In this document: positions 8,469-27,736 of the stretch, piece after piece
How positions within the stretch are numbered: position 1 is the first letter of the stretch
Layout of the letters: every line of letters begins with the position of its first letter
Source: Parachlamydiales bacterium
GTDB taxonomy: Bacteria > Chlamydiota > Chlamydiia > Chlamydiales > SM23-39
NCBI GenBank assembly: GCA_016935395.1
Contig: JAFGQY010000110.1
Span: 1 to 37,589, forward strand
DNA length: 37,589 bases
Direction of reading: 5' to 3'
The notes under the pieces: generated by a model
Databases searched by the model: none
What the model saw: only the letters and a program-made list of their open reading frames with translations
What the model was told of the DNA's origin: nothing
Translations under genes and position numbers: made by a program

Positions 8469-8477
8469 GAAAAACAA

Positions 8478-9125: not shown

Positions 9126-10399
9126 AAAAAATTATAATACTTGCTTCATTTATATTAATGGCCTGTTCATCAAAATGCATCGATGATGAACTAACATGCC
9201 TTCAAATAGTTGATAGAAATGGCATGTCTGAAACTATAAGTTCTAAAGAGAAGCTTAAAAATTTTTCGAACGTAGACTTTCAAAAACCGCAATCCTATCA
9301 AAGGGTTCTGAGAATCTATCAAAACCGTGAAAAAGGACAAATTGTCTCAAAGCTCACAACCTACTATCCTAATGGTCAGCTTCATAAATCTTTAGAAATT
9401 ATAAACTCCAGAGCTTATGGCAAATATATTGAAAAGCATCCAAATGGGAATTTGAAAATTGAAGCTAATGTAATAGGTGGACCTGCTGATTTTAATGCTC
9501 AGGATGAATGGATATTTGAAGGACCGTCAAAAGTTTTCGATGAAAAAGGAACTTTGATTTCTGAGTTTTATTATGAAAAAGGAATGCTTCAAAAAGAAGC
9601 TAAATATTATCACCCCAAAAACTCGAAGTTAAAAAAAGTAATCCCTTATCTTGATAATGAAATTGATGGAATGGTTTTGGAATATGATATTAATGAACAA
9701 TTAATCAGTAAAGCCAGCTTCAAAAAAGGAATCAATCATGGAACAGCTACTGCTTTTTGGGGAAAAGACAACATTCGATACATTGAAGAATATGAAGAAG
9801 GTAAAATTATTTCAGGACAATATTTTCAAAAGTCCAGAGTTCGAATATGCAAGATTAAAAATGGAGATGGTCAAAAAGCCATTTTTAAAGATGGTCTGTT
9901 ACATCAGCTAGTAGAATACAAAAATGGAAAACCTGAAGGAAAGATTGAAGTTTTTTCCAAAGATTTTGAGCTGGTGAATGAATACTATCAAAAAGATCAA
10001 GTAAAAGACGGTGAAGAAATTGAATACTACACAAAAAAACAAAGAGCTGACCCATCAAAAAACAAAACCCTGCTGCCAAAACTTTTAATTACATGGGATA
10101 ATGGATTAATACAAGGAAATGTTAAAACGTGGTATAAGAATGGGAAGCTTGAAAGTCAAAAAGAGTATTTACAAAACAAAAAAAATGGCCCTCATTTCGC
10201 TTGGTATGAAAATGGATCTGTAATGTTTATAGAAGAATATGAAAACGATTCTTTAATCAAAGGATCCTATTTTCAAATGAGCCAAAAGGAGCCTGCAAGC
10301 ACAATAGTTAATGGATGCGGAATAGCAACTCTTTTTGATTCAAAAGGTAGGTTTATAAAAAAAATAAACTACAAAAATGGAAATCCTTTGAATGAATGA
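9122..10399 (+). CDS. Lipoprotein with MORN/YwqK-type repeats
   Basis: Lipobox IILASFILMAC-SS. Repeats such as TYYPNGQLHKSLEI, KHPNGNLKIEANV, TWYKNGKLESQKEYLQNKKNGPHFAWYENGSVMFIEEYEN. CT648-like position. Confidence 0.85.
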   Translation: MKKIIILASFILMACSSKCIDDELTCLQIVDRNGMSETISSKEKLKNFSNVDFQKPQSYQRVLRIYQNREKGQIVSKLTTYYPNGQLHKSLEIINSRAYGKYIEKHPNGNLKIEANVIGGPADFNAQDEWIFEGPSKVFDEKGTLISEFYYEKGMLQKEAKYYHPKNSKLKKVIPYLDNEIDGMVLEYDINEQLISKASFKKGINHGTATAFWGKDNIRYIEEYEEGKIISGQYFQKSRVRICKIKNGDGQKAIFKDGLLHQLVEYKNGKPEGKIEVFSKDFELVNEYYQKDQVKDGEEIEYYTKKQRADPSKNKTLLPKLLITWDNGLIQGNVKTWYKNGKLESQKEYLQNKKNGPHFAWYENGSVMFIEEYENDSLIKGSYFQMSQKEPASTIVNGCGIATLFDSKGRFIKKINYKNGNPLNE

Positions 10400-10919
10400 C
10401 AATAAGTCCGATCTTAGAAAAAAGTTTTTAAAGATTAGAAATGGCATATCTTTAACAAGAAGAGCTATAGCTGAAAAAAAGATCAAAAAACTTGCCTCAT
10501 TAAATTTCAAAAATGTTTTATCTTTTGCAAGCAAGGCAAAAGAAATTAATCTTTGGTCTTTAAACAAAAAGCTTGCATCTGAAAAAAGATGTTTTCTCCC
10601 AAAAGTCTTTAAAAATGAGCTTCGCATATATAAAATAGAGAACATTGAAACAGATTTAATAAAAGGAAAATTTCAATTATTAGAACCAAATCCTGCAATC
10701 TGTGAAGAAGTAGATATCGGTATAATATCTTGTGTAATAGTTCCGGGTTTAGTTTTTGACAAAAAAAACAATAGACTTGGATATGGCAGGGGATTTTATG
10801 ACAGATTTTTAACACAGATTGATTGCCCTTTTATCGGTGTCGGTTTTTTAGAACAGTTAACAGAATCAATCCCAATAGAAAAACATGATATTAAAATGAA
10901 TCATGTTTTATTATTTTAA
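10392..10919 (+). CDS. 5-formyltetrahydrofolate cyclo-ligase
   Basis: DLRKKFLKIRNGIS at the N-terminus; VPGLVFDKKNNRLGYGRGFYDRFL signature. ygfA/CT649-like. Confidence 0.93.
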   Translation: MNDNKSDLRKKFLKIRNGISLTRRAIAEKKIKKLASLNFKNVLSFASKAKEINLWSLNKKLASEKRCFLPKVFKNELRIYKIENIETDLIKGKFQLLEPNPAICEEVDIGIISCVIVPGLVFDKKNNRLGYGRGFYDRFLTQIDCPFIGVGFLEQLTESIPIEKHDIKMNHVLLF

Positions 10920-11339
10920 AAAAAAATCTTCACTTGGCCTGCAGCCATTACAAGACGTGTCATCTTCATCTTCAGAATTTTGTTTTTTTGGTTTTGGTTT
11001 GCAGTAATGAGGCCCTGGGCATTCACTAGCTGATACATTGCTTCCTGCTGCAACATTTGAACACATTGCAAAAAAACCTCCATATTCACATCTCCAAATA
11101 ACCGTATAAGGAGTATAAGAAGAGGTAGCATCGTAATTAATATCTAGTTGAGTTTTAGATGAGTCAGAATCCCAATTGGATTGATCTCCCGGCTGAAAGG
11201 TAGTTTGTCCTAAAACTTTTCCATTTGCAGATTGGACTATGGCAGTCAACTGAAATGGAGTGTCGTTGTATAAATATAAAGAATCAGCATAACTATATCC
11301 GATAAATAAAAATATTGATAAGATAAATAATCTTTTCAC
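10911..11339 (-). CDS. Secreted Cys-containing hypothetical protein
   Basis: Best start is GTG at 11339 (AAGGGGGATAGAG-GTG), giving signal peptide MKRLFILSIFLFIGYSYA; the track start is 11363. Mature part has paired Cys (WRCEYGGFFAMCSN, ECPGPHYC, SCNGC) and a charged tail. Confidence 0.7.
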   Translation of the reverse strand: MKRLFILSIFLFIGYSYADSLYLYNDTPFQLTAIVQSANGKVLGQTTFQPGDQSNWDSDSSKTQLDINYDATSSYTPYTVIWRCEYGGFFAMCSNVAAGSNVSASECPGPHYCKPKPKKQNSEDEDDTSCNGCRPSEDFFLK

Positions 11340-11480
11340 CTCTATCCCCCTTGCTAATTTCATAAATACCTAACAAGCAATTTTTGATCAAAGAAATATT
11401 AATAAAAAAAACATCGGGTTAATTCAGCTTCATCTTTTTATTCATAAAAAAATATTTTCTTTCTTTTATAAAAAAAAAGA

Positions 11481-11581: not shown

Positions 11582-12727
11582 ATGTCCCATGCAAAAACAT
11601 TTATTTTATTAGGCATCTTTACAGTTAATTTTTTATTTTCAGAAAACAATAGTAATTGTAACCCAAAGTGCCCTCCCCAAAAATGTGAACCTGCGGTTTG
11701 TAAACCCAAACCAAAATGTCCCCCGGTTAAATGTGAGCCGGTAAAATGCAAAGAAGAAGAAAAACCTGAATGTGAAGTTCCAAAAGCTCCGGATTCTTCA
11801 GCTTATGTAGCTCCCGGAAGAATAAATGTATGCACTACTTGGGATTTTAACTTATCAGCATCATTTATATATTGGGAACCTAGAGAAAAGGGTCTTGAAC
11901 TTGGAATCCCGTTTAATAATACAAACATGGATTTTAACAAGTCAGAACTTCAAAACATGGACTTTACATATAAGATGGGGTTTAAAGCTGCTCTTGGTTT
12001 TAACTTTGAAAATGACAACTGGACATCATTATTTGAATATACCAGATTTCATATGACTCACAATTCTAAATCTACAAGACCCGATTGGGCAGATAGATTT
12101 AATGCCATCTGGTTTTCTAATGCAGAAGATAATACTACCGAAATAAAAGGCAGATGGAAATTAAACTTAGACATTATTGATTTTAGAATAGCAAGACCTT
12201 CTTATTTTGGAGAAAAGTTTATCTTAACTCCATTATTTGGAGGAAAAGGCGGATGGATAGATCAAAATTACAGATCTACTATATTATATAATGGATCTTA
12301 CGTACAAAATAATCTTAAATCTAGATCTTGGCTTATTGGACCTAGAGCGGGTATTGATTCGAAATGGCTTCTAGGCTCTGCATTTAGAATAAATGGTGAT
12401 TTTGCTTTTAGCTTATTTTATCAGTATTTTAGAAGCATTACTATGAAAAGACAAAATATAAATGCTCCCGATTCTTTAGAAGCTAACGTTTTAAATAAAA
12501 AAGGATATGTTAATCCTGCAATTGAAACTGCTGTTGGTCTTGGATGGGGCTCTTACTTCAGTAGAAACAAATATCACTTTGACTTACTGGCAAATTATGA
12601 ATTTCAATTCTATTTCAATCAAAACATGATGAGAAGCCTGAAAGATAATTATGATGCAAAATCTGATTCTAGTCCCGGAGATTTAATGTTTCATGGATTA
12701 ACAGTTACAATGAAATTTGATTTCTAA
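11582..12727 (+). CDS. MOMP-like porin 1, Cys/Lys/Pro-rich N-terminus
   Basis: CNPKCPPQKCEPAVCKPKPKCPPVKCEPVKC; SRSWLIGPRAGIDSKWLLG; ends MKFDF. RBS GGGGGGAG. Confidence 0.9.
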   Translation: MSHAKTFILLGIFTVNFLFSENNSNCNPKCPPQKCEPAVCKPKPKCPPVKCEPVKCKEEEKPECEVPKAPDSSAYVAPGRINVCTTWDFNLSASFIYWEPREKGLELGIPFNNTNMDFNKSELQNMDFTYKMGFKAALGFNFENDNWTSLFEYTRFHMTHNSKSTRPDWADRFNAIWFSNAEDNTTEIKGRWKLNLDIIDFRIARPSYFGEKFILTPLFGGKGGWIDQNYRSTILYNGSYVQNNLKSRSWLIGPRAGIDSKWLLGSAFRINGDFAFSLFYQYFRSITMKRQNINAPDSLEANVLNKKGYVNPAIETAVGLGWGSYFSRNKYHFDLLANYEFQFYFNQNMMRSLKDNYDAKSDSSPGDLMFHGLTVTMKFDF

Positions 12728-12745
12728 TAAAGTTTTTTAATATTT

Positions 12746-12780
12746 AACCGAAAAGAGATTCTTACTTTTCGGTTTTTTTA
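12746..12780 (+). terminator. Rho-independent terminator after porin 1
   Basis: AACCGAAAAG...CTTTTCGGTT stem followed by a T tract. Confidence 0.85.
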
Positions 12781-12855
12781 TTTTTCAAACAATTTACTAA
12801 AATCTTTCAACGATCTACATTAGATTTAAAAATATATTTAAATGGAGTTTTTCTA

Positions 12856-13908
12856 ATGAAAAAAATTTTCCTGTTTTTAATCTTCCTTTTTTCTTTTACT
12901 TTACTTATTGCTGAAAATTGCTGTCCACCCACACCTTGCGAGTGTGAACCTGCCCCTTGCTGTGAAATTCCCATGCAACCAACAATAAACGGCTATAATA
13001 CACCTGCAAATATTAATGTTTGCGGTCCTGTCGATGCTTTTATTAGCGCAACTTTACTATGGTGGGAAGCATCTCAAGATCAGATGGAGCTTGGAACTCA
13101 AACTTTTCCGTCTAATGAATACGGCCGTCTTATAAAATGTAACTTTGAATGGAAGCCCGCTTTTAAAGTAGCCCTTGGATATAACATAGACTATGATAAT
13201 TGGGTAACTTTAGTTCAATACACTAGATGGAACGGAACAACTAATACTTCCAAATCACTATCTGAAAACGGAACTTTAAACGATCTTTGGTTTGGGCAAA
13301 CTCTTCCAACTCTTTCAAAAATATCTCAAAAATGGAAATTGGATTTTAATATTTTCGATTTAGAATTTACCCGCCCCTTTTATAATGGAACAAAACTCAC
13401 CCTTTCCCCCCAGATTGGATTAAAAAGCGGATGGATATCTCAAGAAATAGATGAAACTGTAACGTCCTTATCAGATAATAAGTTTCAAATGTCCCTCCAA
13501 TCAAAATCTTGGCTTGTTGGCCCTAAAGTTGGTCTTTACTCAAATTTTCTTGTCGGTAATGGCTTTAGATTTTTTGGAAATTTTGCGGGAAGTCTATTTT
13601 ACCAAAGATTTAATAAGTTAAAATTAACAGAACCTGATGTAACAGATACTTCAACTTTATTTAATGCACTAAAATATTCAAATGGATTTATCAATCCAAG
13701 CTTTGAATGTATAGTAGGAATCGGTTATGGAAAATATTTTGCTAGAAATAATTGGCATTTTGATGTTTTTGCAGGATATGAAACTCAAATTTATTTCTCT
13801 CAAAATATGAACACATTTTTAAATATTACAAAAAATTCTGACAATACAATATCGCCTGGAAATTTGATGTTTCAGGGACTTACTCTATCTATGCAATTTG
13901 ATTTCTAA
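12856..13908 (+). CDS. MOMP-like porin 2
   Basis: ENCCPPTPCECEPAPCCEIPMQPTINGYNTPANINVCG; SKSWLVGPKVGLYSNFLVG; ends MQFDF. Confidence 0.9.
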   Translation: MKKIFLFLIFLFSFTLLIAENCCPPTPCECEPAPCCEIPMQPTINGYNTPANINVCGPVDAFISATLLWWEASQDQMELGTQTFPSNEYGRLIKCNFEWKPAFKVALGYNIDYDNWVTLVQYTRWNGTTNTSKSLSENGTLNDLWFGQTLPTLSKISQKWKLDFNIFDLEFTRPFYNGTKLTLSPQIGLKSGWISQEIDETVTSLSDNKFQMSLQSKSWLVGPKVGLYSNFLVGNGFRFFGNFAGSLFYQRFNKLKLTEPDVTDTSTLFNALKYSNGFINPSFECIVGIGYGKYFARNNWHFDVFAGYETQIYFSQNMNTFLNITKNSDNTISPGNLMFQGLTLSMQFDF

Positions 13909-13928
13909 GCAAAGTATAAAAACCACTT

Positions 13929-13960
13929 AAATCAAACCCGATTTTTCCGGGTTTGATTTT
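13929..13960 (+). terminator. Rho-independent terminator after porin 2
   Basis: AAATCAAACCCG...CGGGTTTGATTT perfect stem. Confidence 0.85.
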
Positions 13961-14047
13961 GATTCATAAAATATTATTATGTAAAAAAAACTTTAATTGT
14001 TTATATTAAAGAAAAAGATTTTTAAATTAAAAATTCGGAGATTTCTT

Positions 14048-15196
14048 ATGAAAAAATTTTCACTAATGTTAATTGCACTTTTTGCGACAACTTGTGTTTT
14101 CGCAGGAACATATAACAATACAGATAATTCTTATCCTTCAGACAATAATTATCAGGACAATTGTCCACCAGATCCTTGTTGTGAACCTTGTCCTCCAACG
14201 CCCTGCTGCGATATTCCTCAGGCGCCAACTATGCCAGCATATAATGCTCCTGCTAGAATAAATGTTTGCGGATGCTGGGATTTTAATATTGATGCTACAT
14301 TTTTATACTGGCAAGCTAACGAAGAAGGGTTATCATTGGGTTATGATGTAGGAAATACAGAACAAATTACCACTGATTTAGGTGAAAAAGTATACGAGTT
14401 TGACTTTAAGTATAAACCGGCATTCAAAGTCGGAATTGGATATAACATGAATTACGATAACTGGAGTTTGCGCCTTCAATATACTAGATTTTATTCAACT
14501 CAGACAACAAGTACCTCTTTAAGATCAAGTGATTTTACTTTTAGATCCAGATGGCTATCTTCCGCAGTTAACAATTATGAAAAAATGCAAAGTAAATGGA
14601 CACTTGATTTTAATATTTTCGATTTAGATCTTCTTAGAACATATTATAATGGTAAACATTTAATTCTCGAACCCTCCTTTGGTCTTAAAGGTGGATGGAT
14701 AGATCAAAAATATATTCATGAGGTAAGCAATCCCCTTGTAGCTGTAGATGTAAATCCTCTACATGCAGACTTTTTAAGCGATTCTTGGCTTATAGGACCT
14801 AGAGCAGGCTTAAAAACTAAATGGTTTTTGGGCTGTGGCTTTAATGTAATTGGTAATTCTTCTATTAACCTTTTTTACCAAAAATTCAACAAAGTAATTT
14901 TACAGCAACAATCTAATACAAATGCAAATTTATTATCTCAAAACATAAAAACTAATGATCAAAGTAACATTAACTCATCTTTTGAATATTTACTTGGACT
15001 TAGTTATGAAACATATTTTAACAGAAATAATTATCATTTTTTAATTTCAGCCGGATATGAATCTCAAATCTATTTTCGTCAAAATGAGATCAGATCTCAA
15101 TCTGATACTGCAACAAGTACTAATGGAGGAGCTTTTTCTAACCCTGGAGACTTATCTTTCCATGGCTTAAATCTTCAGATAAGATTTGATTTTTAA
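14048..15196 (+). CDS. MOMP-like porin 3
   Basis: Start corrected from 13997 to the ATG at 14048 (CGGAG RBS; MKKFSLMLIALFATTCVFA signal peptide). CPPDPCCEPCPPTPCCDIPQAPTMPAYNAPARINVCG; ends IRFDF. Confidence 0.9.
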   Translation: MKKFSLMLIALFATTCVFAGTYNNTDNSYPSDNNYQDNCPPDPCCEPCPPTPCCDIPQAPTMPAYNAPARINVCGCWDFNIDATFLYWQANEEGLSLGYDVGNTEQITTDLGEKVYEFDFKYKPAFKVGIGYNMNYDNWSLRLQYTRFYSTQTTSTSLRSSDFTFRSRWLSSAVNNYEKMQSKWTLDFNIFDLDLLRTYYNGKHLILEPSFGLKGGWIDQKYIHEVSNPLVAVDVNPLHADFLSDSWLIGPRAGLKTKWFLGCGFNVIGNSSINLFYQKFNKVILQQQSNTNANLLSQNIKTNDQSNINSSFEYLLGLSYETYFNRNNYHFLISAGYESQIYFRQNEIRSQSDTATSTNGGAFSNPGDLSFHGLNLQIRFDF

Positions 15197-15229
15197 TAAT
15201 GATGAATAAAAAAATTAAGGATAATTGAA

Positions 15230-16342
15230 ATGAATATAAATAAAATAAAACTACTTTTAATATCATTAGTTGTTTTTTCAAACGCATTTGCAAAGCAATT
15301 TAGTGATAACAATAACTGTCCACCCTGTTGTGAAATACCTCCCACTCCTCAATCTTCAGCATACAACGCACCTGCGAGAATAAATGTGTGCAATGAATGG
15401 GACGTTTATGCATCTGGAACATTTCTTTGGTGGCAGGCTAATGAAGAGGGTTTAGCTGTAGGTTACTCTAGAGGAGGAACGGGTGTTATCGGTAATAATA
15501 ATGTGATTACATCACGTCCAGATAAAATTTTTGATTTTGATTTTAAATATGAACCTGCCTTTAAGATTGGCCTTGGTTATAATGTGGTTTATGATGATTG
15601 GGATGTTTTTCTGCAATATACAAGATTAAACTTCACAAACACCACTACCGCACAAAAACCTAGTGATGGGGTTTTGATTCCCAGATGGGTTAGAGCAACA
15701 AGTTCAGTTTTTGTCGGTATTTCAGGTTTAGAAAGTAAATGGAAATTAGATTTTAATATTTTTGATTTGGATTTGGGCAGAAGTTATTATGTAGGAAAAA
15801 AATTTACATTAAAAACACTTTATGGCCTAAAAGGCGGTTGGATCAATCAAGCTTATACACAAGTAGCTACCCTTCCCGATTTTTCACTAATTAACAGTAA
15901 TACATCTGTAACAAGGTCTTTGTCAGATTCTTGGTTATTAGGACCTAGAGCTGGATTAAATGGAAAGTGGCATCTTGGATCCGGTTTTAATTTAATCGGG
16001 AATACTGAAATAAGTTTATTCTATCAACAATTCTCTAAATATTCTATGAAAATGCAATCGCCTACAAATCCGAATTTACTTTTTAGAAATAAATCAAACA
16101 AAAATTTCAACGCTGTCAATCCTTCAATCGAATTTCTATTAGGATTTAATTGGGGCTGTTATTTAGATAGAAATAATTGGCATTTTGATATTTTAGTAGC
16201 TTATGAACAACAAACATATTTTTTTCAAAATAAAATGAGATCATATGCGGATACTATATCAGGTGTTAATGGAGGAGAGATTTCTAACCCTGGAGACTTA
16301 TCTTTACATGGATTAAATCTTCAGATAAGATTTGATTTTTAG
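15230..16342 (+). CDS. MOMP-like porin 4
   Basis: NNCPPCCEIPPTPQSSAYNAPARINVCNEWD; SDSWLLGPRAGLNGKWHLG; ends IRFDF. Short gap to porin 3, no terminator between. Confidence 0.9.
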   Translation: MNINKIKLLLISLVVFSNAFAKQFSDNNNCPPCCEIPPTPQSSAYNAPARINVCNEWDVYASGTFLWWQANEEGLAVGYSRGGTGVIGNNNVITSRPDKIFDFDFKYEPAFKIGLGYNVVYDDWDVFLQYTRLNFTNTTTAQKPSDGVLIPRWVRATSSVFVGISGLESKWKLDFNIFDLDLGRSYYVGKKFTLKTLYGLKGGWINQAYTQVATLPDFSLINSNTSVTRSLSDSWLLGPRAGLNGKWHLGSGFNLIGNTEISLFYQQFSKYSMKMQSPTNPNLLFRNKSNKNFNAVNPSIEFLLGFNWGCYLDRNNWHFDILVAYEQQTYFFQNKMRSYADTISGVNGGEISNPGDLSLHGLNLQIRFDF

Positions 16343-16369
16343 GCTATAGAAATATTCTTACAATATTCC

Positions 16370-16402
16370 AACCGAAAAGAATAAAAATCTTTTCGGTTTT
16401 TT
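16370..16402 (+). terminator. Rho-independent terminator after porin 4
   Basis: AACCGAAAAGA...TCTTTTCGGTT then T tract; same stem as after porin 1. Confidence 0.85.
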
Positions 16403-16490
16403 TATTAACTTAATTAGATTTGTAAAAAAAAGCTAAATTATTTAATGTTAAGTAAAAGACGTTTAATAATTTTCAAGTCGGAGATTGATT

Positions 16491-17627
16491 ATGAAAAAAT
16501 TTTCACTAATGTTAATTGCACTTTTTGCGACAACTTTTGTTTTCGCGGGGTCATATAACAATACAAATGATTCTTGTCCTTCAGACAATAATTATCAGGA
16601 CAATTGTCCACCCAATCCTTGCCCGCCAGAACCCTGCTGCGAGCCTTGTCCTTCAACACCATGTTGCGACGTTCCTCAATCGCCAACCATGCCAGCATAT
16701 AATGCACCTGCAAGCATAAATGTATGCGGAGCTTGGGATTTTTACGTTACAGGAACTTTTCTTTGGTGGGAACCTAAACAAGAAAATATGGAAATTGCTT
16801 TAACAACAAATCAAGGCCAGCCGAATAATCCTGGAGAATTTTTTGGATTAGATTACAAATTTAAAGCAGCATTCAAAGTTAGCTTGGGGTATAACTTTAA
16901 CCACGACGATTGGGGTACAAATCTTCAATACACAAGATTTAACTCAACAATTAATGGCTCAGCTGAAATAGGTAACGCTACAAACATGTGGAACCTTTGG
17001 ATAGTTGATGCAGATGCTTTTACTGACGTACAATCTGTATTAAATGTTGATGCAAAATGGAAAGTTGATCATAATATTTTTGATTTTCAATTAATTCGTC
17101 CTGCATACAATGGAAAAAATTTAACTCTTAAACCACACGCAGGCTTAAAAGGTGGATGGATAGATCAAAAATTAACTAATACAAGCTTAGATAATTTAGG
17201 TGCAGAGACATATTATAGTACTTTCGAATCTAAATCTTGGCTAATTGGTCCAAGAGTTGGTATTGACGGCAATTGGTTTTTAGTTGATAGATTCAGAATC
17301 TTTGCAGATGCTGCATTTAGCTTGTTCTACCAAAAATTTTCTAAAATTCTAGCTAGAACCACCTCTTCAGATCCAACTGACACTACTATTGGATATGGAG
17401 TAGAACACAATCTTTCACAAATCAATTCAAGTACAGAGATACAACTCGGATTAGCTTGGGGAAAATATTTTGATAGAAATAACTGGTATTTTGATATTTC
17501 TGCAGGATATGATGTGCAAATCTATTTTGATCAAAATATTATAAGCGATGCTAGATCGACAGACATAACTAAACCTGGAAATTTAATGTTTCATGGTTTA
17601 AATGCAACCATTCGTTTTGATTTCTAG
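16491..17627 (+). CDS. MOMP-like porin 5
   Basis: ATG at 16491 preferred over TTG at 16485 (CGGAG RBS). MKKFSLMLIALFATTFVFA; CPPNPCPPEPCCEPCPSTPCCDVPQSPTMPAYNAPASINVCG; ends IRFDF. Confidence 0.9.
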   Translation: MKKFSLMLIALFATTFVFAGSYNNTNDSCPSDNNYQDNCPPNPCPPEPCCEPCPSTPCCDVPQSPTMPAYNAPASINVCGAWDFYVTGTFLWWEPKQENMEIALTTNQGQPNNPGEFFGLDYKFKAAFKVSLGYNFNHDDWGTNLQYTRFNSTINGSAEIGNATNMWNLWIVDADAFTDVQSVLNVDAKWKVDHNIFDFQLIRPAYNGKNLTLKPHAGLKGGWIDQKLTNTSLDNLGAETYYSTFESKSWLIGPRVGIDGNWFLVDRFRIFADAAFSLFYQKFSKILARTTSSDPTDTTIGYGVEHNLSQINSSTEIQLGLAWGKYFDRNNWYFDISAGYDVQIYFDQNIISDARSTDITKPGNLMFHGLNATIRFDF

Positions 17628-17657
17628 TAACTAAAAAAATTAACTCAAAACTAAAAA

Positions 17658-17692
17658 AACCAAAAAGAAAAAAATCTTTTTGGTTTTTTTAT
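17658..17692 (+). terminator. Rho-independent terminator after porin 5
   Basis: AACCAAAAAGA...TCTTTTTGGTT then T tract. Confidence 0.85.
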
Positions 17693-17789
17693 TTTTGAAA
17701 TTTGATTTGTCATAAAAATATAAAATTACTTAATATCTTAATCAGCTATTTTCCAATAAAAGGAAAAGATAAAACCGGAGATGATAATT

Positions 17790-18866
17790 ATGAAAAAATT
17801 TTCTCTAACGTTAATTGCATTTTTCGCGATGACTTGTGTATTTGCTGATTCTTATAACAGCAATGATTCTTGTCCTCCAGAACCTTGTTGTGAGCCTTGT
17901 CCTCCAACACCATGCTGCGATGTTCCTCAAGCTCCTACTATGCCAGCATATAATGCGCCTGCGCGTTATAATGTTTGCGGAAGCTGGGATTTCTTCGTAA
18001 CAGGTACTTTTTTATGGTGGCAAGCTAAAGAACAAGGTCTAGAAATCGCTCTTATTGATGGAGCAACATCTACTGAAAAAGGCCAAATTGAAGACATGAA
18101 ATTCGATTATAAAGCTGCCTTTAAAGTTGGGTTGGGTTACAACACTAATTGTGATGATTGGACAACATATTTACAATATACAAGAATGAACATTACTCAA
18201 AATAAAACAGTTACCTCTTCAAATTTTAACTCAAACGTAGATTTTTGGGTTACAGCTTTAGGGGACATTCAAAGCGCAGCAGAAGCTCGCTGGGAATTGA
18301 ATCATAACGTGTTTGATTTTGAATTAGGTCGTCCTTATTACAGCGGTAAGGATTTAGTTTTCCAACCTTTCTTTGGTATCAGAGCTGGTTGGTCAGATCA
18401 AGAATACAGAGACATAGCAACTGCTGTTGATACAACTCAACAAGAAGTTAATGTTAAATCTGATTCTTGGTTAGTTGGACCTAGAGTAGGCGTTAATTCT
18501 AATTGGTACTTCATAGATGAGTTTGGACTTATTGGTAATGCTGCGTTAAGCGTATTTTATCAAAAATTCAACAAACTTACATTAAAAGAATTTGATGTTG
18601 CAACACCAAATACTTTTGATAAATATTATGAAGACTCTATACAAACTATTAATTCTAGCATTGAATTATTATTCGGCTTAGGTTATGGCACATATTTTGA
18701 TCATAACAACTGGCACTTTAATATCTTTGCTGGTTATGAAGCACAAATATATTTTAATCAAAATATGTTACGTTTCTACAATGAAATTACAGATGGCGCA
18801 CCTGTTGTTAAGCCAAATAACTTGATATTTCATGGTTTGAATGTAACTGCAAGATTTGATTTCTAA
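17790..18866 (+). CDS. MOMP-like porin 6
   Basis: ATG at 17790 fits the CCGGAG RBS better than 17781. CPPEPCCEPCPPTPCCDVPQAPTMPAYNAPARYNVCG; SDSWLVGPRVGVNSNWYF; ends ARFDF. Confidence 0.9.
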   Translation: MKKFSLTLIAFFAMTCVFADSYNSNDSCPPEPCCEPCPPTPCCDVPQAPTMPAYNAPARYNVCGSWDFFVTGTFLWWQAKEQGLEIALIDGATSTEKGQIEDMKFDYKAAFKVGLGYNTNCDDWTTYLQYTRMNITQNKTVTSSNFNSNVDFWVTALGDIQSAAEARWELNHNVFDFELGRPYYSGKDLVFQPFFGIRAGWSDQEYRDIATAVDTTQQEVNVKSDSWLVGPRVGVNSNWYFIDEFGLIGNAALSVFYQKFNKLTLKEFDVATPNTFDKYYEDSIQTINSSIELLFGLGYGTYFDHNNWHFNIFAGYEAQIYFNQNMLRFYNEITDGAPVVKPNNLIFHGLNVTARFDF

Positions 18867-18889
18867 TTAAATCTTATTTAACAATCTTT

Positions 18890-18930
18890 AAGAGCTGAAA
18901 AGGATCGATACTTTTCAGCTCTTTTTTTTA
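18890..18930 (+). terminator. Rho-independent terminator after porin 6
   Basis: AGAGCTGAAAAG...CTTTTCAGCTCT then T tract. Confidence 0.85.
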
Positions 18931-19015
18931 TAAAAAAATATTTTTGTTATTTAATTACTATTCTAAGTATTATTTAAATATACCAAAAAAAAATAATTAA
19001 AAATTGGAGAAAATC

Positions 19016-20110
19016 GTGATAAAATATAAGAAAATATTTTTCATTCTAGCTCTAACAGCAGGAGTTAGTTCTTTTGCAAATGTAAGCAAAAACAACAATA
19101 GATGTGCTGAAAGTGGTTTCTCTCAAGGGTATGAAACCTCAAAAGCTCAAATGAGAAACGGATATAATACACCTGCAAGAATCAACGTTGAAGGATCTTG
19201 GGATTTTTTCGTTACTGGAAGTTTTATATACTTTCAGCCCCAAGAAAGAGGCCTTGAACTTGGCACTGTCAGATCAGGAAATCAAGAAAAATTAAACACA
19301 ACGCCCGGCGAGTTAATAAATGCAAAACTTGAATATAAATCAGGCTTCAAAGTTGCATTGGGATACAATTTTGATCATGATGACTGGACCGGTCTTATCA
19401 AATATATGTGGTTTCATCCTACAATAAATACAAAAAAAACAGATGTTGCTAACGAAATTTTTATCTCTGAATGGAGGCCATCAAGATTAAATCCTGCTTC
19501 CCCGATAATCTCAACAAATAGCAAATGGGAATTGGATCTTGACATATTAGACTTTGAACTAGGACGATATAACTACACAGGCAGATATTTAATTTTTATG
19601 CCTTATTCTGGATTAAGAGGCGGATGGATCGATCAAAAATATGTTTCAATAGTGACAACTCGTACAAATATTGATTTTCCTACAACTTCTAAGTCTGATT
19701 CATGGATAATTGGACCTAGAGTTGGAATTGATACTAAATGGCTACTTGGAAGTGGTTTCCGTTTTTTTGGTGATATATCAACAAGCTTATTCTATCAAAG
19801 ATATAGCAAGGTAAAATTTATTCAATCTAGCAATACTAATCCATCAATTCCCTCTATAAACATCAAAGATAAAAACAATTTCATAAATCCTAACTTAGAT
19901 TTAACTTTAGGATTTGGTTTCGGTTCTTATTTCAATGAAAATAATTGGAATTTTGATCTTTTAGTTGGCTATGAATTTCATATGTTTTGGAATCAAAATA
20001 TAATGAACCAACTAAAAGCTAGAACTGATCTTACTAATGATGCTGAAGCCATAAAACCTGCCAACCTAATGCTTCATGGTTTAATAGCTAGCATTAGTTT
20101 TGATTTTTAA
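19016..20110 (+). CDS. MOMP-like porin 7
   Basis: GTG at 19016 preferred (TTGGAGA RBS) over TTG at 19004. NGYNTPARINVEGSWDFFVTGSFIYFQP; SDSWIIGPRVGIDTKWLLG; ends ISFDF. Confidence 0.9.
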   Translation: MIKYKKIFFILALTAGVSSFANVSKNNNRCAESGFSQGYETSKAQMRNGYNTPARINVEGSWDFFVTGSFIYFQPQERGLELGTVRSGNQEKLNTTPGELINAKLEYKSGFKVALGYNFDHDDWTGLIKYMWFHPTINTKKTDVANEIFISEWRPSRLNPASPIISTNSKWELDLDILDFELGRYNYTGRYLIFMPYSGLRGGWIDQKYVSIVTTRTNIDFPTTSKSDSWIIGPRVGIDTKWLLGSGFRFFGDISTSLFYQRYSKVKFIQSSNTNPSIPSINIKDKNNFINPNLDLTLGFGFGSYFNENNWNFDLLVGYEFHMFWNQNIMNQLKARTDLTNDAEAIKPANLMLHGLIASISFDF

Positions 20111-20131
20111 TAATAAAAATGGAGTAAAAAA

Positions 20132-21193
20132 ATGAAATTTAAAAAAATAATTTTTTCAATGATTGGTGTTTTTTCGATAGTGAGTATTTCTGCTCAAAAT
20201 CAAAAAAAAACCGTAGATCAAAAATGCACCTCTAAAAAGATAATAGAGATGGGTTATCCCTTAGAAAAAAATCAGAGCAAAAATATTTATAATGCACCAG
20301 CAAGCATCGATGTTTGTGGCTCTTGGGACGTATTTGTATCAGGAAGTTTTATATTGTGGCAGGCAAAAGAAAACTGTCTTCAATTAGGTAAATTTACCCC
20401 AACTATTGCATCTGATCAAGTTTCTACAGTAAATATGGATTTTGATTTTGCACCGGGATTTAAGGTCGGTTTGGGTTTTAATACAGGATTTGATGGTTGG
20501 AATACCTATTTAGAATACGTTAGACTACAATCAACATCAAAAGAAGATTATAACTCCTTGCCAGAAGGTGTTGCTCACATCAACAGCCCCTGGATACCTA
20601 TCCCCTTAACAAACATTCAGGGAAAGTGGAAGATAGAGTACAATATGGCAGATTTCGAACTTTCAAGACCATATTATAATGGCACAAAGCTTACTATAAA
20701 CCCTCTTTTTGGTTTCCGAGGAGGCGCAATAGATCAAAAGTTTGAGGTTTCTACAAACGGAGCTCTTGGCAGATCAACATCGAATTTCAAAAATGATTCT
20801 TGGTTAATTGGAGGAAGAGCTGGAATATATTCTAATTATTTATTAGGTTATGGCGTTAAAATTGTTAGTAAAGTTGCAACAAGCCTAAACTATCAACGCT
20901 TCAAAACAAGCATTCTGTTTATAAACGCAAACGATCCATCATTAATTACTAAAATTTTGGAAGATAAAATTGGACTTTTCTCTCCAAATTTAGATTTAAA
21001 TATAGGATTTGGATGGGGAACTTATTTTGATCATAATAATTGGCATTTCAATCTTTTGGCATTGTATGATGCGGTTTTTTGGTGGAATCAAAACGAAATA
21101 GAAAACTTAAGAAGTACAAATAATTTGTCAGATGGAGAACCGAGCAGTTTATTTTTACATGGCTTAACAGTAACAATAAAATTTGATTTTTAA
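20132..21193 (+). CDS. MOMP-like porin 8
   Basis: NIYNAPASIDVCGSWDVFVSGSFILWQ; NDSWLIGGRAGIYSNYLLG; ends IKFDF. Confidence 0.9.
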   Translation: MKFKKIIFSMIGVFSIVSISAQNQKKTVDQKCTSKKIIEMGYPLEKNQSKNIYNAPASIDVCGSWDVFVSGSFILWQAKENCLQLGKFTPTIASDQVSTVNMDFDFAPGFKVGLGFNTGFDGWNTYLEYVRLQSTSKEDYNSLPEGVAHINSPWIPIPLTNIQGKWKIEYNMADFELSRPYYNGTKLTINPLFGFRGGAIDQKFEVSTNGALGRSTSNFKNDSWLIGGRAGIYSNYLLGYGVKIVSKVATSLNYQRFKTSILFINANDPSLITKILEDKIGLFSPNLDLNIGFGWGTYFDHNNWHFNLLALYDAVFWWNQNEIENLRSTNNLSDGEPSSLFLHGLTVTIKFDF

Positions 21194-21267
21194 ATAAAAA
21201 AAAAAGTATATTGCTATGCTTTACAATAAATAAATATAAAGCATTGTAAAATGGAGTAAAAAAAAAC

Positions 21268-22350
21268 ATGAGAATAAAAAAAATATATTTTTTGTTATCA
21301 ATGTTATTGTCTTTTTTTGCTTTTGCAGATCAAGGTGATGATGATTTAGTAACATATAACGCTATGTACAAAAAACAGACCCATAGATACGACCAGGGTG
21401 AAGTTGTCGGAAAAAATAATATGACTGACGGGTATAATTCTCCTGCTAGAATAGATACTACTGGTTGGGATATATATATCAATTCAAGCTTTGTATATTG
21501 GCAATCAAGACAAAGGGGACTTCGTTTTGCTGCAACAGCGGGATATGAGCTCATTCCTTATGTTACTAAAAATTTAAATTATGAATTTGGACCTGGTTTT
21601 AAAGTATCATTAGGAATGGGAACAGGATTGGATCAATGGACAATAGGAATTGATTATTTACGTTATCACACAACTGTAAAAGATTCCAAAAGTCCAAGTT
21701 TAGATCCAAGTATAATTCCATTAATACCTTTTTGGAGAACTCAATCAGTTAATGCATCTAAAATTGATTTTAAATGGAAATTAAACTTAGACATTTTAGA
21801 TTTAAAAGTTGGACGTCCTTTTTATGAAGGGACACATTTAATAGCACGCCCTTATTTAGGTCTTAGAGGGGGATGGATATATCAAAGAGTATTTTCTAAT
21901 ACTACTACCTTTTCAACTTTATTGCTTTTAGAAGATAGAGCAAAATCTGATTCTTGGATTATAGGCCCTAGAGCAGGGGTAGATGCTGATTGGATTTTTG
22001 GTGGTGGTTTTAGTTTCTTTACATCATTAGCAGCTTGTATTTTCTATCAAGATTTTGATGCAACATATTTAGAGGTTAACCATACTAATCCTGAAAATTT
22101 AGTCCTAAATATAAAAAACAATGCAAAATATGTCTCTTCAAATCTTGATATTTTAGCCGGATTTAAGTGGGGAATGTATAATAGAAGTAAATCTTTTCAT
22201 TTTTCAATTCTTGCAGCATATGAACTGCAAAACTATTGGGCCCAAAATGAAATGAGACATTTAAAGGACATTTCAGAAACGGTCAATGAAAAAACACCTG
22301 GAAGTTTATTTTTGCAAGGACTAACAGCAAGCATAAATTTAGATTTTTAA
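21268..22350 (+). CDS. MOMP-like porin 9
   Basis: DGYNSPARIDTTGWDIYINSSFVYWQS; SDSWIIGPRAGVDADWIFG; ends INLDF. Confidence 0.9.
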   Translation: MRIKKIYFLLSMLLSFFAFADQGDDDLVTYNAMYKKQTHRYDQGEVVGKNNMTDGYNSPARIDTTGWDIYINSSFVYWQSRQRGLRFAATAGYELIPYVTKNLNYEFGPGFKVSLGMGTGLDQWTIGIDYLRYHTTVKDSKSPSLDPSIIPLIPFWRTQSVNASKIDFKWKLNLDILDLKVGRPFYEGTHLIARPYLGLRGGWIYQRVFSNTTTFSTLLLLEDRAKSDSWIIGPRAGVDADWIFGGGFSFFTSLAACIFYQDFDATYLEVNHTNPENLVLNIKNNAKYVSSNLDILAGFKWGMYNRSKSFHFSILAAYELQNYWAQNEMRHLKDISETVNEKTPGSLFLQGLTASINLDF

Positions 22351-22369
22351 GATAAAATTAAATCTTTTT

Positions 22370-22410
22370 CAAAAAACCCTAAAAGAAAAAAACTTTTAGG
22401 GTTTTTTATT
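22370..22410 (+). terminator. Rho-independent terminator after porin 9
   Basis: AAAAAACCCTAAAAG...CTTTTAGGGTTTTTT. Confidence 0.85.
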
Positions 22411-22474
22411 TTTTTGCTAAAAACATCTTTATTATTTATTCTATTAATTAATTAATTTTCTTTAGGTACTAAAT

Positions 22475-23518
22475 ATGAATTTTCCAAAAATTTTAGCAGT
22501 TTTTTCATTATTCTTTTTAATTGAAGGATTTTCAAATATTCAAGAACCTAAAATAATTGACCCAATCTTAGGCTACAACAAAAGTGCATTTATCAACGTA
22601 CAAAAACCTTTTGGTCTTTATACCGAAGCCACTTTCCTTTACCTTCAGCCGACGGAAAAGTCTTTAGAGCTTGGATTTGAATTGCCCCAAGACGATTTAA
22701 TTAACAACACAAAAGGTCAAGTCATAAACATGAAGTTTGAATATAAACCCGGGTTTAAAGTTGGACTGGGTCTACATACTCTTCATGATGGATGGGACGG
22801 CTTATTTGAATATACCTATCTTCATATGAAAGAAACGACAAATCATAAAAAGTCAAGTTCAGCAAAAGCGATTATTCCTATTTTCAGACCATCAAGAACT
22901 CCAAATTTCAGTTCAATTTTAGAAATAAAAAACAGCTGGAAGCTAAATTTTGATCTTTTTGATTTTCTGTTATCAAAACCTTTTTTTTCTGGAAAAAAAC
23001 TTATTGTAAGTCCATTTTTTGGAATTAGATCAGGATGGATAAATCAAAATTTCAGATATGAAACTTTTACAGATTTAGCGCTTTCATTAAACAACATGAA
23101 ATCAACTTCTTGGCTTATAGGACCAAGACTTGGTCAAAATTCTAAATGGATGATTGAAAAATATTTCAAATTCTTCGCAAATACCTCTATTAGCTTGACA
23201 TTTCAACAATTTAAAACAATAAAACTTCAAGAAGAAAATGGAAATACACCTGATATTTTATCTCACAGTGCAATAAACAGAAAAACCAACTTGATTAGTC
23301 CTATTTTTGATATGGTTTTAGGGGTGGGCTTTGAAAATTTCATAGCATCAAATAAGTATCACTATGATCTTAAGTTTGGTTATTTGCTTTTATATCTTTT
23401 TAATCAAAATATGATATCAAACCTTAAAACCAGATTAGATGTAGATGTTAGAACTTCAACAAAACCCGCTAATTTACTGCTTCAGGGGCTGGATTTTTCT
23501 TTTAGATTAGATTTTTAA
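22475..23518 (+). CDS. MOMP-like porin 10
   Basis: LGYNKSAFINVQKPFGLYTEATFLYLQP; STSWLIGPRLGQNSKWMI; ends FRLDF. No Cys seen. Confidence 0.85.
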   Translation: MNFPKILAVFSLFFLIEGFSNIQEPKIIDPILGYNKSAFINVQKPFGLYTEATFLYLQPTEKSLELGFELPQDDLINNTKGQVINMKFEYKPGFKVGLGLHTLHDGWDGLFEYTYLHMKETTNHKKSSSAKAIIPIFRPSRTPNFSSILEIKNSWKLNFDLFDFLLSKPFFSGKKLIVSPFFGIRSGWINQNFRYETFTDLALSLNNMKSTSWLIGPRLGQNSKWMIEKYFKFFANTSISLTFQQFKTIKLQEENGNTPDILSHSAINRKTNLISPIFDMVLGVGFENFIASNKYHYDLKFGYLLLYLFNQNMISNLKTRLDVDVRTSTKPANLLLQGLDFSFRLDF

Positions 23519-23534
23519 AAAATAGGAAATTTTG

Positions 23535-24578
23535 ATGAAAAATAAAAAAACAATATTAGTGTTAATTTTAGCCTTACCTTTACTTCTTTTTTCTAATGAT
23601 TTTTGTGAAAACGATACCGAATCGTTCAAAAAACATGACCCTCAAAAAGATAGATTAGAAAAGATCTACAACATCTCCTATTTTGAAAAGAATCTTCCTG
23701 AAGTGGATTACTCGGTAAGCGGATCTGTCATTTTATGGCAGCCAATTGAGGGTGGGTTAGAACTAGGCATTTTTAGGCCTAGCGATCAAAACAGTGATTG
23801 GCCTTCAATTAATATGGATTTTGATTATAGACCCGGATTTAAAGTTGCTCTTGGCTGTCATTTTAAAAATAGTTATTTAGAGGCTTTTCTTGAATACACC
23901 TTTTTTCATATGCAATCTTCAAAAGAGTCAAGACAAAAAGGAGCTATGCAAAGCATAATAACTCCTTGGTATAACGAAACTGAAATTCCCTCTTTAGTTT
24001 TAAAAGCTAAATGGAGATTGAAATATGACATTTTAGATTTTAAACTTTTGAGAAAGTCTTACACAGGAAAAAAACTAGTTTTAAGTCCTTTATTCGGAGT
24101 AAGGGGAGGATTTTTAAGACAAAAATATGATCTTTTTACCACATTAGATTATGGAAAGATAAACTCTTTTAACAATGTTAGATCTTTTTTAGTAGGACCC
24201 AAAACCGGAGTCGAAACAAATTGGATATTAAATCATGGAGTTGACATATTAGTTAACTTCTCAGGTTCTCTATTATTTCAAAATTTTACTACCAAAAGAC
24301 AGGTTGATAACTTTTCTGATCCTCAAAGCCTAGATATTAACATTAAGACAAAATCAAAAAATTTTAATCCAAATCTAGAAGTATTGTTCGCAATAAACTA
24401 TCAAAATTTCAATGAAACAAAAAACAGTTATTTAAATTTTTTAGCGGGATATGAATTCCAATATTTTTTTAATCAAAATATTTTCCAAAATGTTCAGGCT
24501 ATAGAAAATAGAGCCGATGACAATCCAAATGATCTGATGATGCATGGATTAACTATTAAATTTAGATATGATTATTAA
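23535..24578 (+). CDS. MOMP-like porin 11 (diverged)
   Basis: VDYSVSGSVILWQPIEGGLELGIF; VRSFLVGPKTGVETNWIL; LAGYEFQYFFNQNIF; ends FRYDY. ATG at 23535. Confidence 0.85.
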   Translation: MKNKKTILVLILALPLLLFSNDFCENDTESFKKHDPQKDRLEKIYNISYFEKNLPEVDYSVSGSVILWQPIEGGLELGIFRPSDQNSDWPSINMDFDYRPGFKVALGCHFKNSYLEAFLEYTFFHMQSSKESRQKGAMQSIITPWYNETEIPSLVLKAKWRLKYDILDFKLLRKSYTGKKLVLSPLFGVRGGFLRQKYDLFTTLDYGKINSFNNVRSFLVGPKTGVETNWILNHGVDILVNFSGSLLFQNFTTKRQVDNFSDPQSLDINIKTKSKNFNPNLEVLFAINYQNFNETKNSYLNFLAGYEFQYFFNQNIFQNVQAIENRADDNPNDLMMHGLTIKFRYDY

Positions 24579-24593
24579 AGGAGCTAAAAAGCA

Positions 24594-25604
24594 ATGAAAT
24601 TTAAAAATTTTTTATTTTTTATAATATTAACAACAGCTTCTTGTGCTTATGCATTTAATAGTAGCTCTAACAATTTTGAAAAGGAAAATTTTAACTTTGG
24701 ATATAACCCTTCATCTAACATCAACCCTGATTTTTTTACATCAGCAAGTTACATATTTTTTGCAGCAAAAGAAAAAGGACAAAGCTTTGCCTTTATAAAT
24801 TATTCAACCGATAGGGCAGATGAAATCAAAGAATTTAAATTTGATTATATCAGCGGATTTAAAGTTGAACTTGGAAAAAATTTAAATTATGACAGCTTTT
24901 CTTTAGTAGCAAAATATATGTTTTATCATCCCACCTACAAAGAAAATGAAACTGTTAAATACAATTCAATTCTATCAGATTTGTGGCACACAACTACTCT
25001 TAATTCAAAAAGTATTCATGCAAAATGGATACTTGATATGGACCTTGGAGATATAATTTTAAGGCGTTTATATCAAAATAGCGAAAAGTTGTCCTTGGGT
25101 TATTTTTTTGGTCTTTTCGGTGGCAGAATCAATCAAAAAGAGGAAACAAAAACAGAACAGTTAACCTCAAATAATCTCATCTTTGCGAAAGCTAAATCTA
25201 ATTCATTGCTTATTGGACCTGAAATTGGAATAGATGTAAAATGGCAGCTTACTAAAAAGTTTAGTTTTATAAGTAACTCTTCAAGTGCTTTGTTTTTCCA
25301 GTCGTTCAAAGTTTTTTATGAAGAAGAAAATCCATCTCCTCCACCTTTTCAATTGCAAAAACATGAAGAGAACAGAGTAAATTATTTCAACCCGAAAATA
25401 GATCTATTATTTGGATTTAAATGGGAAAACCATTTTTCAAATAACAACAGATATTCATCTATTTTTTTAGGATATGAATTAGATTACTACTTTAATCAAA
25501 ACATGATGAGACATTTAAAAGATTTACTAGAATCGCTCGATTCTAAATCACCGGGTGATCTTGTTTTAAACGGGGCCGTACTAACTCTTCAAATTGGGTT
25601 TTAA
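24594..25604 (+). CDS. MOMP-like porin 12 (most diverged)
   Basis: INPDFFTSASYIFFAAKEKGQSFAF; SNSLLIGPEIGIDVKWQL; LGYELDYYFNQNMMRHLKD; ends LQIGF. Confidence 0.82.
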   Translation: MKFKNFLFFIILTTASCAYAFNSSSNNFEKENFNFGYNPSSNINPDFFTSASYIFFAAKEKGQSFAFINYSTDRADEIKEFKFDYISGFKVELGKNLNYDSFSLVAKYMFYHPTYKENETVKYNSILSDLWHTTTLNSKSIHAKWILDMDLGDIILRRLYQNSEKLSLGYFFGLFGGRINQKEETKTEQLTSNNLIFAKAKSNSLLIGPEIGIDVKWQLTKKFSFISNSSSALFFQSFKVFYEEENPSPPPFQLQKHEENRVNYFNPKIDLLFGFKWENHFSNNNRYSSIFLGYELDYYFNQNMMRHLKDLLESLDSKSPGDLVLNGAVLTLQIGF

Positions 25605-25605
25605 T

Positions 25606-26583
25606 TTATTTGTGAATCAGAGCATATTGAGCCGCTCCTAATAAAGCGGCCTTATCATTAAGTATTACTTTTACCGGAATTTTTCTCATAAAATCTGAAA
25701 ACCTTCCTTTTTCTGAAAAAGCTCTCATAAAATGCTCTTCTTTAATTTTTTCTAACATTTTTGGAGCAATACCGCCTCCAATATAAACCCCGCCTAAAGC
25801 AAAAAATTTCAATGCCGCATTTCCTGCCTCAGCTCCATAAATTGAGATAAATAAATCAACAGCAACTTCACAAACTTTAATTTCTTTTTTCATTCCTTTT
25901 TGAGTTATCAAAACTTGAGGCTGTCTAACACTAGCAAGAGAGTGATCAAAAGAACTAACTCTTTGTTCGTACCCTCTATCGATTAAAAATTTATAAATTG
26001 AATACAAACCTGGTCCGGATAAAATTCTTTCATAAGAAACGTGTCCAAATTCTTCTCTCAAATATTTTAAAAGTTCTATCTCAATATCATTTCTAGGTCC
26101 AAAATCCGTATGTCCACCTTCGCAGGCAAATGGTCTATATTTTTTTCCATCAAAGTAAAGGCCAGCCTCTCCAAGTCCTGTTCCTGCAGCAACAAGGCAT
26201 CTATTGCCTAAAACATTTTTCTCGCCTTCATTTATGGTATAAAATTCATCTTCATTTAAAACTTCTATTCCATATGCATTCGCTTCTAAATCATTTAACA
26301 AATAAACATTTTCACAATTTAGCTCTTCTTTTAACTCGCTTACATCCACCATCCACGGTATATTAGTAGCTTTACATCTTCCTTCCTTCACAGGTCCGGC
26401 AATTCCAAAACTTGCAGCTTTGAGGTCAATTTTTTCATTTTCTAAAAAGTGTTTTATTGCAGAGTGAATTGAATCATAATTAGTACTCAAAAATCTATCT
26501 TCCTTTAATAATTTCAAAGGCCATTTGTATTCAAACAAAGCAAAGCGTGAATTAGTACCTCCAATATCTCCAACTAGTAACAT
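25606..26583 (-). CDS. glk: Glucokinase
   Basis: MLLVGDIGGTNSRFALFE; SFGIAGPVKEGRCKATNIPW; LLNDLEANAYGI; VAAGTGLGEAGLYFDGKKYRPFACEGGHTDFGPR; LGGVYIGGGIAPKM. Confidence 0.95.
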   Translation of the reverse strand: MLLVGDIGGTNSRFALFEYKWPLKLLKEDRFLSTNYDSIHSAIKHFLENEKIDLKAASFGIAGPVKEGRCKATNIPWMVDVSELKEELNCENVYLLNDLEANAYGIEVLNEDEFYTINEGEKNVLGNRCLVAAGTGLGEAGLYFDGKKYRPFACEGGHTDFGPRNDIEIELLKYLREEFGHVSYERILSGPGLYSIYKFLIDRGYEQRVSSFDHSLASVRQPQVLITQKGMKKEIKVCEVAVDLFISIYGAEAGNAALKFFALGGVYIGGGIAPKMLEKIKEEHFMRAFSEKGRFSDFMRKIPVKVILNDKAALLGAAQYALIHK

Positions 26584-26710: not shown

Positions 26711-27736
26711 ATGACTAAAGAAAATTTAGAAAAGAAAAAAGCTTTAGAACTTGCTATCGCTCAAATTCAAAAACAGTTCGGAGAAGGCGCGGTGATGGCT
26801 CTCGGCAAACATTCATCATCAAGAAAAATTGAATCTATCCCAACCGGAGCTTTATCTTTAGATCTGGCCCTCGGTATAGGCGGACTTCCAAGAGGAAGAA
26901 TTGTTGAAGTTTTTGGTCCAGAATCTTCTGGAAAATCAACGCTCGCACTTCATGCAGTTGCCAGCGCTCAAAAAAACGGCGGAATCGCAGCTTACATTGA
27001 TGCTGAACATGCCCTAGATCCCGCTTACGCAGCCAAAATTGGAGTTAACTTAGATGAACTGATGATATCACAGCCGGACTCCGGAGAAGAGGCTTTAAAC
27101 ATAGCGGATACGCTTGCTAGATCAAATGCCTTAGATCTTATAGTTATCGATTCGGTTGCAGCTTTGGTTCCTAAAAATGAACTTGAAGGTGAAATTGGAG
27201 ACTCTCATATGGGACTTCAGGCAAGAATGATGTCTCAAGCTCTTCGTAAACTTACCGCAACTTTATCAAAAGCAAAAACATGCGCTATTTTTATTAACCA
27301 GATAAGAGAGAAAATTGGAATTGTGTTTGGTAATCCCGAAACAACAACAGGTGGAAGAGCGTTAAAATTTTATGCATCTGTCCGCTTAGACATAAGAAGA
27401 ATAGCTTCAATAAAAGGTCCTGATGGAAGAGATCTTGGAAGTAGAACTAGAGTAAAAGTTGTAAAAAATAAAATGGCCCCTCCTTTTAGAATTGCTGAAT
27501 TTGACATAAACTTTAATGAAGGGATTTCAAGAGCTGGATCTGTTTTAGACCTAGCTGTTGAATATGAAATTATTGATAAAAAAGGAACCTGGTTTAGTTT
27601 CGAAAACAACAGACTGGGACAGGGTAGAGAGTCGGCTAAAGAAGAGCTAAAAAAAGATGAAACATTGCTTCAGAAACTTGAAAAATTGATTACAGAAAAA
27701 TCAGAACCTAAAATTGTTGAAGTAGAAAAAAAATAA
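26711..27736 (+). CDS. recA: Recombinase RecA
   Basis: [64 protein letters not shown]. Confidence 0.99.

Follow-up and report, generated by a model that had tools for sequence, protein, structure and literature searches.

The DNA analysed here (the window) is a 37,589-nucleotide stretch that makes up a whole contig of a Parachlamydiales genome (1.58 Mb in 147 contigs; completeness 96%), which we place in the family Anoxychlamydiaceae. Between positions 11582 and 25604 it carries an array of twelve consecutive genes, p1 to p12, for outer-membrane barrels of family PF05150, the type of the Legionella major outer membrane proteins (MOMPs). Our data directly support the family assignment, the predicted barrel fold of two copies, a conserved genomic site, the duplication of p2–p6, sequence exchange between neighbours and a concentration of variation in the extracellular loops. 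We consider it probable that these tandemly expanded barrels form a specialised set of channels.

Twelve diverged copies of a PF05150 barrel

The initial annotation described twelve consecutive same-strand genes for diverged versions of one secreted β-barrel, each with a signal peptide, shared core strands and a terminal F or Y, and this description holds. Exactly twelve open reading frames (ORFs), encoding 336–382 residues each, fill the interval on the plus strand; all are intact, and no gene of another kind is interposed among them. All twelve proteins exceed the 25.4-bit cut-off of PF05150 (Legionella_OMP, Lpg1974-type), at 71–105 bits (E 9e-20 to 5e-30) and over about positions 4–280 of the 281 in the model (26–278 for p12), so that a chance match is excluded. 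Signal-peptide-like N termini were read by eye in every copy, and every C terminus is aromatic (DF in ten, DY in p11 and GF in p12). The proposed graded divergence is borne out by pairwise identities of 24–52%, a divergence so large that misassembly of near-identical repeats is excluded as an explanation. Relatedness extends well beyond short motifs, because the alignment spans the proteins from end to end and contains 20 invariant columns. The starts of p3, p5, p6 and p11 are refined positions, and a reading of p3 and p4 as one 781-codon open frame was rejected because a TAA stop ends p3. The genome holds 18 PF05150 copies: the twelve of the array, three on one contig and three single ones.

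The label 'MOMP-like (Lpg1974-family)' stands in its second half. The proteins are of the Lpg1974 or Legionella MOMP type, whereas the Chlamydiaceae MOMP model PF01308, considered as the family, found no match in this genome and matched a positive control (G032) at E 2e-230. Searches of the window proteins against NCBIfam yielded no usable name and one spurious Plasmodium match, and the Pfam Autotransporter model had no significant match among the array proteins (best E 0.005, below cut-off).

AlphaFold models of p5 and p12, built from the twelve-sequence alignment, are both β-barrels, with a mean predicted local distance difference test (pLDDT) of 74 and 80 and a predicted template-modelling score (pTM) of 0.71 and 0.75, respectively. 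Ten long strands were read in each (counted by reading, with pairing not inspected), and the p5 model is disordered at residues ~20–80. In Foldseek, the best match of both models in the Protein Data Bank (PDB) was 9nh1, the in-situ porin I of Legionella, whose sequence is named major outer membrane protein (target TM 0.74 for p5 and 0.79 for p12); ten-stranded OmpT/Pla barrels came next, and OpcA was also among the neighbours. The fold search was decisive here: a sequence-profile search of the PDB recovered 9nh1 weakly (E 0.08), and structural alignments with Legionella MOMP have 11–15% identity. The other ten copies, to judge from their alignment with the two modelled ones, probably share the fold.

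As suggested in the initial annotation, we mapped variability onto the barrel, taking the N terminus to be periplasmic, as is standard for such barrels. On this assignment of inside and outside, mean pairwise identity is 0.39 in the strands and 0.39 in the periplasmic turns but 0.18 in the extracellular loops (p=3e-11, loops versus strands). Variation also rises towards the surface within the strands, with a mean identity of 0.31 in their extracellular halves and 0.42 in their periplasmic halves (p=1e-5).

Cysteine content divides the array in two. The N-terminal tail of p1–p6 is rich in cysteine and proline, and nearly all of the 5–10 cysteines of these proteins lie in it, before the first strand (for example, CPPEPCCEPCPPTPCC); p7–p12 are without the tail and have 0–3 cysteines. 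Because copies at the same site in some relatives (G021, G013 and G014) have similar tails, the tail is probably an old feature that p7–p12 have lost. A search for OmcB (PF03504) gave matches in five further families of the order and none in the 19 Anoxychlamydiaceae genomes searched. The cysteine-tail split, together with the lack of detectable OmcB, is a new detail, and it offers a testable handle on envelope stabilisation in this chlamydial family.

Table 1 Features of the porin array and its flanks
Feature	Position	Strand	Remarks
5-formyltetrahydrofolate cyclo-ligase-like gene	10392..10919	+	Conserved left flank by synteny; name read from sequence
Small secreted cysteine-containing protein	10911..11363	-	Left boundary; no Pfam/NCBIfam match; conserved beside the locus in relatives
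Porin p1	11582..12727	+	381 aa; PF05150 100 bits; Cys-rich N-terminal tail, 9 Cys
Terminator-like hairpin after p1	12746..12785	+	AACCGAAAAG...CTTTTCGGTT, then T tail; read in gap sequence and its fold
Porin p2	12856..13908	+	350 aa; PF05150 92 bits; Cys-rich tail
Hairpin after p2	13929..13962	+	Weak T tail
Porin p3	14048..15196	+	382 aa; PF05150 96 bits; Cys-rich tail; 5′ end in common with p5, 3′ end with p4
Porin p4	15230..16342	+	370 aa; PF05150 96 bits; short Cys tail
Terminator-like hairpin after p4	16370..16405	+	Gap fold
Porin p5	16491..17627	+	378 aa; PF05150 105 bits; Cys-rich tail; structure modelled
Terminator-like hairpin after p5	17652..17700	+	Gap fold
Porin p6	17790..18866	+	358 aa; PF05150 96 bits; Cys-rich tail
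Terminator-like hairpin after p6	18890..18932	+	Gap fold
Porin p7	19004..20110	+	368 aa; PF05150 95 bits; Cys-poor
Porin p8	20132..21193	+	353 aa; PF05150 73 bits; Cys-poor
Porin p9	21268..22350	+	360 aa; PF05150 89 bits; Cys-poor
Terminator-like hairpin after p9	22371..22415	+	Gap fold
Porin p10	22475..23518	+	347 aa; PF05150 83 bits; no Cys
Porin p11	23535..24578	+	347 aa; PF05150 83 bits; Cys-poor
Porin p12	24594..25604	+	336 aa; PF05150 71 bits (lowest of the twelve); Cys-poor; structure modelled
Glucokinase-like gene	25606..26583	-	Conserved right flank by synteny; name read from sequence
recA	26711..27736	+	Conserved right flank; full-length relatives 68-79% identical

A recA-linked site and the history of its copies

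The array occupies a site whose neighbours recur in relatives in the order dus, two genes, a MORN protein, the cyclo-ligase, the small secreted gene, porin(s), glucokinase, recA, polyprenyl synthase and a next gene. Where the locus is complete, relatives have one to five porins at this site, compared with twelve in the window: one in each of eight genomes, three (plus a fragment) in G008 and five in G002. In eight further genomes a contig end or a missing left flank truncates the view, and the one to three porins counted there are minimum values. An additional large gene is present at the site in some genomes. In other families of the order, two genomes have two porins there, and four have none beside recA and the left-flank genes.

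Counts and run lengths in relatives are lower bounds, set by the contig ends of metagenome-assembled genomes and by the matches listed. Twelve is the longest run both at the recA site and among the matches listed in all searches; other runs reach at least eight (G102 and G129), seven (G102) and six (G020, with one wider gap), and one two-contig genome of the order has at least 37 PF05150 copies. No copy appears in any Chlamydiaceae-like genome listed (f8). The size of the array, which the initial annotation found remarkable, is therefore extreme rather than of a new kind, because elsewhere across the phylum run lengths of seven to eight and as many as 37 copies per genome are found. The array is a long and well-preserved case within a family whose expansion in environmental chlamydiae was already known. 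A second tandem array of the same wider subfamily, not near recA, is found in one genus (six copies at G020:C64 6947-15600 and four at G025:C27 3600-8900). Within a five-copy run, the PF05150 copy at G030:C3:241199-242104 has an internal TAA and is probably decaying. Tandem PF01308-type MOMP frames of ~290–360 residues in another family of the order (G033:C136:4243-6870) represent a separate barrel family that has expanded in parallel.

A tree of 44 porins groups p2–p6 in their own clade (support 100/99), with p3 paired with p4 and p5 with p6; as read from this tree, they are lineage-specific duplicates. A single clade for all twelve copies was neither rejected (p-AU 0.327) nor shown. The arrays of relatives are better resolved. 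Each position of the recA-site triplet in G020, G025 and G011 has its own orthologues. Across genera, a further three triplets can be matched copy for copy (G025/G014, G014/G022 and G002/G016, some pairs with moderate support). The ratio of nonsynonymous to synonymous substitution rates (dN/dS) among orthologues is 0.13–0.37 in the extracellular zone and 0.07–0.32 in the rest; one orthologous gene has a surface that evolves at three to four times the rate of its other parts. Positional orthologues with dN/dS well below 1 indicate that the relatives' copies are kept as distinct genes.

Two pairs within the window bear marks of exchange. Where p3 and p4 encode the same residue, they use the same codon at 38 of 40 positions in their 3′ ends but at 66 of 138 in the remainder (p=5e-5); at the 5′ ends of p3 and p5 the figures are 29 of 31 and 78 of 145 (p=0.002, weaker when allowing for several pairs), in a tract that includes a 48-base exact match. 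These tracts of synonymous identity imply that local conversion or crossing-over occurs, at gene ends and not in loops. The apparent 5′ similarity of p3 to p6 and of p5 to p6 was rejected as exchange, not being significant at synonymous sites.

The family placement follows from a flanking gene with a C-terminal GreA domain, which is 59% identical to that of 'Candidatus Anoxychlamydiales' K1060_chlam_5, where the downstream gene order is the same. Anoxychlamydiaceae corresponds to family SM23-39 and has been described as having strict anaerobes among its members (PMC8242063). The 715-residue protein encoded at 2090-4237 (plus strand) has its GreA/GreB domain only at the C terminus, after a long uncharacterised N-terminal part, and also occurs in Clavichlamydia and Chlamydia at 39–40% identity. 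Three plus-strand genes at 7071-10399 (two without a family and one MORN-repeat gene) keep their order across the family, the first at only 20–31% identity. The 10911-11363 protein adjoins the porin site on its left side in eleven Anoxychlamydiaceae genomes and in two genomes of other families. It was not found in the four loci examined from other families in which the flanks are present but a porin is not.

Proposed channel specialisation and competing explanations

We propose that the twelve complete genes arose by repeated duplication of a porin gene beside recA, at a site where many relatives have one copy. Hairpins lie in all six gaps of at least 124 bases, most with a T tail, and none of the five shorter gaps (13–74 bases) has a T-tailed hairpin. 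This layout suggests about seven transcription units (p1, p2, p3–p4, p5, p6, p7–p9 and p10–p12), which may produce a mixed population of channels that differ in extracellular loops and pores. Each copy would be retained because it serves a particular substrate range, life stage or host contact. The flexible, presumably periplasmic tail of p1–p6 probably links barrels with one another, with a different envelope protein or with the cell wall. Several points weigh against this account. The placement of p7–p12 among relatives is not resolved and they have no resolved orthologues, so that for most copies in the window, unlike those in the relatives' arrays, positional orthologues are not established. 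The two exchange tracts show that copies do recombine to some extent. Promoter-like sites are no commoner than in shuffled sequence (77 versus 74.3), which leaves the transcription units to gap length and hairpins. Finally, a ten-stranded barrel, as modelled, is narrow and its function as a pore uncertain.

The initial annotation had offered surface variation or substrate specialisation as the role of the locus. A surface-variation locus would hold the paralogues as a reservoir for antigenic or phase changes, with loops switched by phase variation or gene conversion. The loops are indeed the variable parts, exchange tracts exist and recA is close to the array. However, the array contains no contingency tract (G/C runs of 6 at most, A/T runs of 10 at most and one (AT)5; no systematic search was made for inverted repeats of the kind that flip promoters) and no silent partial donor cassette, all twelve ORFs being complete with start, signal-like N terminus and stop. 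The exchanged tracts cover the signal and tail region and the C-terminal end, most pairs have no significant tract, and the neighbouring genes that were examined included no identified invertase or site-specific recombinase. The positional orthologues of relatives, moreover, are the opposite of constant reshuffling. Because these orthologues are under purifying selection, tracts and cassettes are missing and the genes fall into about seven apparent units, we favour a specialised channel set and judge surface variation quite improbable. Of the two, substrate specialisation is the better fit, as a putative role.

A possible but unlikely alternative is a repertoire for adhesion or host interaction, in which the barrels mainly display different loops to the host (or to phage) and transport is secondary. 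The focus of divergence on loops and the narrow barrel agree with it, as do the fold neighbours that follow Legionella MOMP, since OmpT/Pla and OpcA are barrels known for surface activities. With no PF05150 in the Chlamydiaceae-like genomes, copy number tracks environmental lineages, and host-range and immune roles have been proposed for a similar family in Waddlia (PMC2878342). Against this, shape-based neighbours are uninformative on activity, and the orthologues' surface zones are on average still under purifying selection. We are more doubtful of a mainly structural role, with cysteine-tailed barrels making a disulfide-linked or wall-tethered envelope in place of OmcA/OmcB–MOMP cross-linking. 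The OmcB survey, the tails here and in relatives and the conserved secreted cysteine protein adjoining the array would suit it, and the covalent binding of Legionella MOMPs to peptidoglycan (PMC11841132) is a precedent for a tethering tail. But six of the twelve copies are without the tail, so the whole array is not explained; disulfide formation is less obvious in a family described as including strict anaerobes; and the search covered OmcB, not OmcA. An extension of this idea, which we regard as a long shot, is a two-class envelope: p1–p6 and the left-boundary cysteine protein would form a covalently linked porin lattice replacing the OmcB/MOMP complex, p7–p12 would be free channels, and the two sets would be transcribed separately and used at different developmental stages. 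Neutral amplification, with duplicates drifting without selected differences, draws on the strong copy-number variation between related genera, but is largely refuted by twelve uninterrupted, diverged frames with conserved core residues and by the low orthologue dN/dS in relatives; we give it almost no credence.

Comparison with known systems

Environmental chlamydiae have expanded PF05150 barrels repeatedly, and the Chlamydiaceae-like genomes listed have none. Within a single family, the number of porins at the site that recA and other conserved neighbours anchor ranges from one to twelve, a natural series in which to follow when copies are gained, retained and specialised. The likeness to Chlamydiaceae MOMP/OmpA (PF01308) is one of name and, by analogy, of an outer-membrane barrel role, as the window proteins do not match that model. 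The chlamydial Pmp autotransporters, proposed for adhesion and variation, are likewise a multi-copy surface family, but their architecture of passenger and autotransporter barrel differs. Closest are the Legionella MOMPs (Lpg2961, Lpg2960 and Lpg1974; TCDB LM-OMP 1.B.57), which belong to the same Pfam family over the barrel and provide the nearest solved fold. These are multi-copy and peptidoglycan-bound in Legionella; we liken the array to them on family and fold alone, and it differs in its low structural-alignment identity, in the cysteine- and proline-rich tails of half its copies and in having twelve genes in one array. MOMP-like families have also been described in Simkania (35–37 copies), Waddlia (11) and Rhabdochlamydia (5–6) (PMC3561449, PMC2878342, PMC6490308). 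By these published descriptions, rather than by a PF05150 match, they too are expanded and diverged, some clustered and some cysteine-rich; the array described here is set apart by its single run of twelve at a family-conserved, recA-linked site and by its division into cysteine-tailed and cysteine-poor halves.

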